Below are positions 2,179-4,145 of a DNA stretch of 64,000 nucleotides, one piece after another (the first letter of the stretch is position 1; the number at the start of each line of letters is the position of its first letter). The position numbers were made by a program, and so were the translations under genes. The DNA is from a virus. The stretch is from the IMG/VR virus record IMGVR_UViG_3300007609_000008, positions 61,422 through 125,421 of that record; one strand, written 5' to 3'. Under the pieces are notes generated by a model. It worked only from the letters and a program-made list of their open reading frames with translations. It ran no database searches and was not told where the DNA came from.

Positions 2179-2841
2179 ATGAAAAATTTTATACACATTG
2201 AAGCTCCAACATTACCATCTCTGTCTCGTAAAAACATAGACGGCAAGAGAGTATATGTAAATGGAGATGGAGATAAATATCCATCTGTCACTTCAGTTCT
2301 TTCTGTTCGTGGTAAGAAAGGTATATTTGAGTGGCGCCAACGAGTTGGTGCAGAAGAAGCAGATAGAGTTTCACGTAAAGCCTCTACTCGAGGCACAAGA
2401 ATACATAAATTGTGTGAAACATACTTGCTTAACGAAGAACTACCTGAATTGTTGCCACTAGACTTAGATACTTGGAAAAAATTTCGACCTATTGTTGAGC
2501 GCATAGATAATATTCATTACGTTGAACCATTTCTGTATAGTAATCATTTAGGAATGGCAGGTCAGTGTGACTGTATTGCAGAGTTTGATGGTAAGTTGTC
2601 GGTCATTGACTTTAAGACTTCACGCCGTCTCAAAAAGCATGAAGGCATTTCAGGTTACTTTGCTCAATGTGCTGCATATGCTGTTATGTATGAGGAACTA
2701 ACTGGAATCGCTATAAATAGAACAGTTGTCCTTATTGCAGTAGATGGTGAAGAGCCACAAATCTTTATAGAGAAGCGTGACAATTACACTGACTATCTTT
2801 TAGAGTCAAAAAGAATGTTTGAAAATGGCGAATACGACTAG
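2179..2841 (+). CDS. PD-(D/E)XK exonuclease (RecB/Cas4-like)
   Basis: This 220-residue protein contains the ordered motifs of the RecB-like nuclease fold: RGTRIH with His76, GMAGQCD with Asp131, IDFKTS with Asp144 and Lys146, and Gln163 in the following helix. Such phage nucleases act on DNA ends in recombination or host DNA breakdown. It lies between tRNA-Arg and an exported glycine-zipper protein, with nine bases to the next gene. The exact substrate polarity cannot be read from sequence. Confidence 0.8.
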   Translation: MKNFIHIEAPTLPSLSRKNIDGKRVYVNGDGDKYPSVTSVLSVRGKKGIFEWRQRVGAEEADRVSRKASTRGTRIHKLCETYLLNEELPELLPLDLDTWKKFRPIVERIDNIHYVEPFLYSNHLGMAGQCDCIAEFDGKLSVIDFKTSRRLKKHEGISGYFAQCAAYAVMYEELTGIAINRTVVLIAVDGEEPQIFIEKRDNYTDYLLESKRMFENGEYD

Positions 2842-2850
2842 GAGAAACAT

Positions 2851-3240
2851 ATGAGAGCATTACTTTTTATAGCAGCACTAGTACCATCAATCGCATTTGC
2901 TCAGATTGAGATAGTTTCAAAGCGACCTTACTATGTTATGGTTACTCAGCAAGAATGTGAGATACGAGAAGTCTATGTTGAGAATACTACAGGCGCATCA
3001 ATCGTAGGTGGTGTCATCGGAGCAGCTATCGGCAATGAGATTGGCGGCGGTTCGGGTAGAAAGATTGCTACTGTAGTCGGTGCAATTACTGGCGCTAATG
3101 TTGGACGCACTCGTGCCCAGAACAATGGCAGAATAGAACAACGACAGATTTGCCGTGATGTGCAAGTGCAAGAGCAGCGTGGTGAATATGTCACAATGCG
3201 ATACAACGGCAAGTTGTTTACACAATTATTTAATTTTTAG
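2851..3240 (+). CDS. Exported glycine-zipper protein
   Basis: The 129-residue product begins with a likely signal peptide (MRALLFIAALVPSIAFA, cleavage before QIE) and has a glycine-zipper segment at about residues 50-85 with repeated GxxxG spacing (VGGVIGAAIGNEIGGGSG). Such proteins insert in or associate with the envelope in Gram-negative bacteria. AGGAGAAACAT precedes the ATG. It sits directly before the tmRNA gene and a cell wall hydrolase, so a role in lysis or superinfection exclusion is possible, but this is inference. Confidence 0.7.
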   Translation: MRALLFIAALVPSIAFAQIEIVSKRPYYVMVTQQECEIREVYVENTTGASIVGGVIGAAIGNEIGGGSGRKIATVVGAITGANVGRTRAQNNGRIEQRQICRDVQVQEQRGEYVTMRYNGKLFTQLFNF

Positions 3241-3244
3241 AATT

Positions 3245-3530
3245 CGTTGAAGCATGTAATAGGAAGTTTGGACAGGGGTGCAACTCCCCTCGCCTCCACC
3301 ATAAGCACATTGGCTTATGTTCGTATCAAGACCGTAAGTGGAACAATACGATCCCAGTGTGTTTATGATGGGGGCGATTTAGATTCGACAGACAACTGAA
3401 AGCATGTGGAGAATAGGTGCGGGAGCTACCTTAAATGCAACAAACTTAATAAATGCCAACGATGAAGCATTTTCTCTAGCCGCTTAGGTTAGATGAGGTA
3501 TGGGTACCGCCTTATAACCAAATGGGCCCA
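3245..3530 (+). ncRNA. ssrA: Circularly permuted (two-piece) tmRNA
   Basis: The acceptor piece comes first: GGACAGGGGTGCAACTCCCC forms the T arm and CGCCTCC-A-CCA ends at 3301. The coding piece starts at 3370 with GGGGGCG, which pairs over seven positions with CGCCTCC, followed by the tmRNA D-loop signature GATTTAGATTCGAC. P2 pairings between the pieces are visible (CAACT with AGTTTG, GCATGT with GCATGT). The tag frame ends GCC GCT TAG and encodes ANDEAFSLAA, or ATNLINANDEAFSLAA if resumption is at the earlier GCA. The stop lies in a CTAGCC/GGTTAG hairpin like P5. Such RNA rescues stalled ribosomes. The outer limits are approximate. Confidence 0.9.
3302..3369 (+). other. Structured intervening segment of the permuted tmRNA
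   Basis: The spacer between the acceptor CCA and the coding-piece 5' end folds on itself. Thirteen pairs join ATAAGCACATTGG (starting within CCA at 3301) to CCCAGTGTGTTTAT (ending at 3368), with an inner six-pair stem TCGTAT/ATACGA. Permuted tmRNA precursors are trimmed here so that the mature RNA is two molecules. The hairpin brings the two processing sites together. Confidence 0.75.
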
Positions 3531-3548
3531 CAACTAAGGAAGACAATC

Positions 3549-4145
3549 ATGAATCTAGTAAGAGAAACACTTCCTATGATTGCAGCAGTAGTAGTGCTCG
3601 TCATAGTAAGTAAGTTAGCTTATAATGAAAATGATGTTCAAGCGGCACCTGTAGCTAAAGACACTACAAGTGTAGCTAGACCTAATTCGTTCTATCAAGT
3701 AGCACAAAAAGAGACTCACTGTCTTGCTACTAATATGTATTTTGAAGCACGAGGTGAATCATTTGAAGGCAAGAAAGCAGTCGCCTTCGTGACTCTCAAT
3801 CGTGTAGACAGCGATAAATTCCCAAACAACATTTGTGATGTAGTGTATCAAGCACAACACTCTTATTGGTGGAAGACCCAGAGAGATCGTCTTGTGCCGA
3901 TTCGTCACAAGTGTCAGTTCAGTTGGTATTGTGATGGCAAATCAGATACTATCAGAAACACGCATGAATATGAATCACTATATAGATTAGCAAGTGAAAT
4001 TATTGTTGGCAAACACCAAGACAACACAGGCGGTGCTGATTACTATCATGCAACACATGTAAAGCCTAAGTGGCGCACAGCTTTTAATCAGACTACACAA
4101 ATAGATGAGCACATATTCTATTCCTCGCTTGACAAGAAAATCTAA
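3549..4145 (+). CDS. SleB-like cell wall hydrolase with N-terminal anchor
   Basis: The 198-residue protein has a hydrophobic segment at residues 9-22, suggesting a signal anchor, followed by a Hydrolase_2/SleB-type domain. NMYFEARGE holds the likely catalytic Glu66, and LNRVDSDKFPN and CQFSWYCDG are typical family motifs. It probably cleaves peptidoglycan and acts as an export-competent endolysin. The ATG at 3549 is preceded by AAGGAAG. An upstream ATG at 3522 falls inside the tmRNA and was rejected. No holin is recognised nearby unless the glycine-zipper protein has that role. Confidence 0.8.
   Translation: MNLVRETLPMIAAVVVLVIVSKLAYNENDVQAAPVAKDTTSVARPNSFYQVAQKETHCLATNMYFEARGESFEGKKAVAFVTLNRVDSDKFPNNICDVVYQAQHSYWWKTQRDRLVPIRHKCQFSWYCDGKSDTIRNTHEYESLYRLASEIIVGKHQDNTGGADYYHATHVKPKWRTAFNQTTQIDEHIFYSSLDKKI

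Follow-up and report, generated by a model that had tools for sequence, protein, structure and literature searches.

Processing of tmRNAs is expected to involve RNase P together with a 3′ nuclease, and the RNA left over from permuted tmRNA genes has so far been treated as waste. Two-piece tmRNAs of the phage group considered here were described in 2022 from phages Mosig and Melnitz, in a study whose survey of public phage genomes yielded 53 two-piece calls, of which 50 came from aquatic or marine samples (PMC9004378). Foreign content within a permuted gene has been recorded as a tRNA-Ala in the intervening sequence of one gene and a repeat in that of another (PMC11915505). Outside tmRNA, the intervening sequences of 23S rRNA have complementary ends and, in Coxiella, carry the S23 reading frame (PMC4990558). 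The literature that we searched gave no account of exchangeable tmRNA spacers; coverage was partial, and absence is no proof of novelty. Here we describe a permuted tmRNA gene on a T4-type viral record whose spacer is one of many cassettes exchanged independently of the tmRNA that surrounds them, a feature that an initial sequence-only reading of the locus had missed.

The window, meaning the whole stretch of DNA that was analysed, covers 64 kb out of a viral record 125 kb long. The phage has baseplate, hub and major head proteins of T4 type, and in a tail protein it shares only about 25% identity with its nearest cultured phages. The tmRNA is preceded by a tRNA-Arg (UCU) along with genes for a PD-(D/E)XK exonuclease and for a glycine-zipper protein (PF05433), and is followed by one for a cell-wall hydrolase (Hydrolase_2, PF07486); the glycine-zipper protein and the hydrolase had been named as neighbours from the letters alone, and domain matches agree on both. 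A TET-associated glycosyltransferase (PF20691) at 1240–2088 of the window suggests that the phage DNA is hypermodified. SmpB was not found on the 125-kb record, which may be incomplete, and without it the host's SmpB would be needed. The features of the locus are as follows, in window coordinates:

2179–2841, plus strand: PD-(D/E)XK exonuclease, found as a conserved neighbour on the upstream side of many permuted tmRNAs of phages (PF12705, phrog_298).

3241–3301, plus strand: acceptor piece, with a 5′ extension (P2 strand), T-arm (3270–3290), acceptor 3′ strand (3291–3297) and A73 plus CCA (3298–3301); placed by ARAGORN, RF04321, the sequence and acceptor covariation.

3302–3369, plus strand: spacer (intervening sequence) cassette, predicted to be absent from the mature RNA, with a basal stem (3302–3313/3354–3365); recognised by its fold, basal-stem covariation and exchange.

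3310–3356, plus strand: conserved apical module with an inner stem (3321–3326/3346–3351), common to tmRNAs of other body types (whole spacer 85–94% identical).

3370–3454, plus strand: 5′ part of the coding piece, with the acceptor 5′ strand (3370–3376) and a D-loop-like UUCGAC region, up to the resume codon; placed by ARAGORN and Rfam.

3455–3487, plus strand: tag frame GCC AAC GAT GAA GCA TTT TCT CTA GCC GCT TAG, giving ANDEAFSLAA; from ARAGORN and the sequence.

3488–3531, plus strand: predicted H-type 3′ pseudoknot and probable end of the coding piece, with helices 3493–3499/3509–3515 crossed by 3501–3505/3526–3530; the beta_tmRNA model reaches 3537.

The sequence-only reading had identified 3241–3530 as a phage-encoded, circularly permuted two-piece tmRNA and had named a score below threshold as the result that would count against it. 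The identification is upheld by the full anatomy and by Rfam model RF04321 (tmRNA_permuted), which covers 3242–3487 with 108.4 bits (cut-off 47; E 3e-20, window search), and ARAGORN calls a permuted tmRNA at 3209–3578 with the tag ANDEAFSLAA. As had been read, the acceptor and T-arm piece, with its CCA ending at 3301, stands 5′ of the coding piece that begins at 3370; the acceptor stem pairs over seven positions across the spacer (CGCCUCC at 3291–3297 with GGGGGCG at 3370–3376), and the tag frame at 3455–3484 ends in LAA before a UAG stop (3485–3487). The third acceptor pair is G3–U70, the alanine identity pair, which is present in 139 of 141 distinct phage permuted tmRNA genes whose acceptor stems are widely different yet paired, and the tmRNA is presumably charged with alanine. 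The model alignment has some non-standard pairs in P2, as might be seen in a decaying gene from which no working tmRNA is made, but decay appears scarcely credible given that the core features are all intact and that, among relatives of the window tmRNA, the acceptor stem changes in a compensatory manner with G3–U70 kept and the tag frame is kept too. An unusual T-loop (UGC for UUC) was considered as a sign of decay and rejected, because many relatives and two bacterial genes have the same T-loop. We read the window tmRNA as functional, probably working in ribosome rescue during infection, and this reading forms part of the overall explanation set out below.

The window gene is a further member of an already known kind, the phage two-piece tmRNA, and the expectation that phage copies are rare was not borne out. 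The exonuclease–tmRNA neighbourhood recurs in the cultured phages Mosig and Melnitz and in the majority of IMG/VR loci that carry this exonuclease, and a pattern scan returned at least about 100 distinct phage permuted tmRNAs, a biased sample in that the large scan demanded TGATGGG (UGAUGGG in RNA) and the base of the stem was thereby fixed by selection. Tags without an LAA end were seen in L079, L080, L174 and L209 (ANDSEYRLVA, ANDSHFLQAANA, ANDSSFLMTANA), and ARAGORN gave tags of 28–31 amino acids, e.g. ANADTFDFSAMSFTGNTVRGAANESRFALAA, in L112, L169, L175 and L200, which may be real long tags or reflect a wrong resume codon. The beta/gamma-like look of the window's tag, remarked on earlier, agrees with the scores of the older models, with RF01850 (beta_tmRNA) covering 3205–3537 at 84.3 bits, barely above its cut-off of 84, versus 63.1 bits for RF01849 (alpha_tmRNA; cut-off 50). 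Beta_tmRNA being the best older model, and the tag resembling beta tags, the tmRNA might have been captured recently from a host with a beta- or gamma-like gene, in which case it would say little about phage biology. We consider such a capture very unlikely, as the shared neighbourhood extends from Mosig and Melnitz to dozens of uncultured phages whose tmRNAs have diverged, a pattern indicating that the gene has long been resident in phages. No bacterial tmRNA more than about 90% identical to the window body was seen in a limited bacterial search; an order-level survey of bacteria had little to offer for betas, where 5 of 150 genomes carried a permuted gene over the cut-off.

The spacer is structured, as had been claimed, and 3302–3369 folds better than 200 of 200 shuffles (z −3.3). 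The hairpin described at 13 pairs is present, although its count is 12 (3302–3313/3354–3365), within one pair of that claim, or 14 when C75–G3367 and A76–U3366 are included; through these two pairs the basal stem prolongs the acceptor stem, so that the precursor would form one rod. In long spacers the two ends are paired, and the basal stem is conserved by covariation: among 104 distinct phage spacers, a mean of 9.4 of the first 10 positions were paired, compared with 6.8 when the arms were taken from different loci (a chance level that is high because different loci partly resemble one another at the ten arm positions), and the positions of the stem each show several pair types. With complementary ends and a variable interior, the phage spacer is intervening-sequence-like by structure. 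The accompanying proposal that the hairpin aligns the two processing sites does not hold as a requirement, because three close relatives of the window tmRNA (L007–L009; coding piece 91% and acceptor piece 95% identical) have spacers of 11 nt and no hairpin. An Rfam search of the window spacer at a permissive threshold returned no family; the best other Rfam match, Hairpin-meta1, reached 18.2 bits against 40 and lay outside the spacer, and a match of 29 bases within a gene of the cultured phage Goslar was judged to be chance.

Spacer and body are inherited independently in these phages. We compared the identity of bodies (minus acceptor strands) with that of spacers for 145 distinct phage tmRNAs in 10,440 pairs, and the counts describe this sample and not rates, since the locus pairs are non-independent, the loci come almost entirely from uncultured metagenome contigs and the UGAUGGG pattern was imposed: 69 pairs had bodies at least 95% alike, 41% of which had spacers less than 60% alike, while 55 pairs, from 11 separate families, had bodies less than 75% alike despite spacers at least 85% alike. 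Vertical descent is insufficient to account for both patterns. The window is a case in point: its 68-nt spacer and the spacer of L337 share 94% identity while the acceptor and coding pieces are merely 65–66% alike, and the closest tmRNAs by body carry either an unrelated spacer of 67 nt (L006) or the 11-nt spacer of L007–L009. The motif of the window cassette occurs in nine IMG/VR stretches, eight of which place it in the spacers of four tmRNA types, the window's included, and its inner stem shows a single compensatory change (C–G to U–A in L332). Spacer lengths are distributed sporadically among close relatives, from these 11-nt examples to the 58, 88, 117 and 175 nt found within one lineage tagged ANDSRFALAA or ANDSQFALAA, whose upstream flanks are 84–94% alike; a tandem-repeat reading of the four lengths was dropped, their contents being unrelated. 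An 88-nt spacer is identical in L119 and in L314 (MAG UBA6191), where the tags differ, and the contig in question may come from a phage that was binned into the MAG.

Unbiased scans gave the same picture for three cassettes, nearly all copies of which lay in tmRNA spacers with varied acceptor stems and tags. For two cassettes other than the window's, the scans, run irrespective of tmRNA, recovered 18 and 21 loci that vary in acceptor stem and tag, all but one of them between CCACCA and GATGGG, and at loci that ARAGORN did not call the flanks were still a tmRNA acceptor stem or the contig started there. Two orphans were found off the tmRNA body. In L347 (8560–8640), a true orphan of the L104-type cassette is flanked by a terminator-like hairpin on one side and, directly 3′ of it, by a tRNA-Gly gene, and has a new palindromic flank (CATTTTC..GAAAATG); in L338 (5400–5480), a window-type cassette has kept the acceptor 3′ strand, CCA, CGCCUCCACCA and UGAUG with the rest missing, just after a permuted tmRNA that is complete and has another spacer. 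These orphans, together with complementary ends, variable interiors and occasional reading frames, are what would be expected if the cassettes were selfish mobile hairpins targeting the tips of RNA stems, as has been proposed for 23S rRNA intervening sequences. We regard this as improbable: orphans make up 2 of about 48 copies over the three scans, no common transposase or endonuclease was seen, interiors are unrelated between cassettes, and recombination, the means of exchange that we infer, is permitted by conserved flanks about 16 nt long on either side.

A clear cargo could be recognised in a minority of spacers. Of the 84 spacers that are 70 nt or longer, 12 had a reading frame significant against shuffles (p ≤0.02), where 1.7 would be expected; several encode 23–38 amino acids with a hydrophobic stretch, and others 39–68. 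One family of 50 amino acids occurs in 19 loci, most copies lying exactly in a 175-nt spacer, and is found as a free gene in L468 and L469; in L467 it lies 0.7 kb from a tmRNA with CACCAAAAGCAAATT still preceding it. Its dN/dS ranges from 0.07 to 0.53 (mostly <0.3), with synonymous change exceeding replacement change per site throughout, and the family is under purifying selection at the protein level. A search of the 50-aa protein against PHROGs and cultured phages gave no convincing match, and the spacer frame of Melnitz, at which the Melnitz annotation has no gene, was found among cultured phages in Melnitz itself only. Frames in the spacers of L003, L156 and L075 are associated with a Shine-Dalgarno-like sequence, extend into the coding piece in L003 and L075, and share YLSG. 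ARAGORN also called a tRNA-Arg (CCG) within the spacer of a permuted tmRNA (L022, 5881–5954), the only such call; a tRNA suspected by eye in the spacer of L100 was not called. In L120 and L121, inspection by eye found a T-arm and acceptor 3′ strand followed by an acceptor 5′ strand and D-arm, an arrangement resembling a nested permuted half tRNA.

Significant reading frames are absent from most spacers, bacterial permuted tmRNAs carry short simple hairpins at the same place, and L007–L009 manage, if working, with 11 nt, which argues that cargo is not needed. The spacer could accordingly be a mere processing hairpin topped with neutral filler, its cassettes shuffled by recombination without benefit. 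We think this unlikely, although it carries more weight with us than selfish mobility, because reading frames are in excess, the 50-aa family is under protein-level selection, cassettes are 85–100% alike across widely diverged tmRNAs, and phage spacers are the longer, with a median of 84 nt (131 spacers) compared with 36 nt for 58 bacterial spacers in which long ones were deliberately included. In our preferred explanation, which we consider probable, the tmRNA is a working one, and its spacer, discarded on processing, serves as a slot for cargo that is exchanged by recombination. The T4-like phage would use the two-piece tmRNA with host SmpB for ribosome rescue during infection, and cleavage after the CCA and before the 5′ acceptor strand would yield two mature pieces and a freed spacer. 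As the mature RNA would lack the spacer, any sequence with pairing ends would be tolerated there, creating an exchangeable cassette slot that structured RNAs, small reading frames or tRNA-like inserts may enter by recombination across the conserved flanks. The window's own cassette would be a short structured RNA and may be a cargo; cargoes in the slot would in general be expressed and bring a benefit. More tentatively, the phage tmRNA spacer may be a dedicated exchange site for functional RNA or microprotein cargo that is released on processing and moves independently of the tmRNA, a proposal that we find quite possible while stopping short of calling it likely. If true, it would constitute a new type of cargo locus hidden within a conserved RNA gene, where annotation pipelines put no genes, and a fresh supply of small RNAs and microproteins from phages; it would also help to account for the large variation in spacer length among permuted tmRNAs and allow a direct test of the role of the leftover spacer.

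Among described systems, Mosig and Melnitz resemble the window as T4-like aquatic phages with a permuted tmRNA and a PD-(D/E)XK nuclease shortly upstream, but they carry the tags GEDNFALAA and ANDNYVPVDYALAA, scored as alpha type, where the window scores as beta type, barely above the cut-off, and their spacers, of 44 and 142 nt respectively, are unlike the window's in content. A glutamine riboswitch lies just after the Melnitz tmRNA (L003, 4191–4239), confirming the published claim, whereas none adjoins the window tmRNA. The permuted tmRNAs of betaproteobacteria (RF01850; Cupriavidus, Advenella) share gene order, G3–U70, a similar tag and hairpin ends with the window; their spacers, in contrast, are short simple hairpins of 30–38 nt (the bacterial median being 36 nt), and no cassette exchange was seen in a small sample. 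Mobile regulatory cassettes, small stem-loop units attributed to Arbiol in 2010, reportedly shuffle among T4-type phages between protein genes, while the phage spacer cassettes lie inside an RNA gene. The tRNA-Ala and repeat insertions likewise represent foreign content within the spacer of a permuted tmRNA gene, but are two single cases listed under non-phage genomes, in a text that does not deal with exchange, reading frames or a general slot (PMC11915505). The closest analogue of the phage spacer is the 23S rRNA intervening sequence, which would be comparable as a removable insert at a stem tip with complementary ends, sometimes a reading frame, and a working RNA that is left fragmented; the phage spacer differs in residing in another RNA, in a phage and not a chromosome, and in presenting many unrelated interiors at one site.
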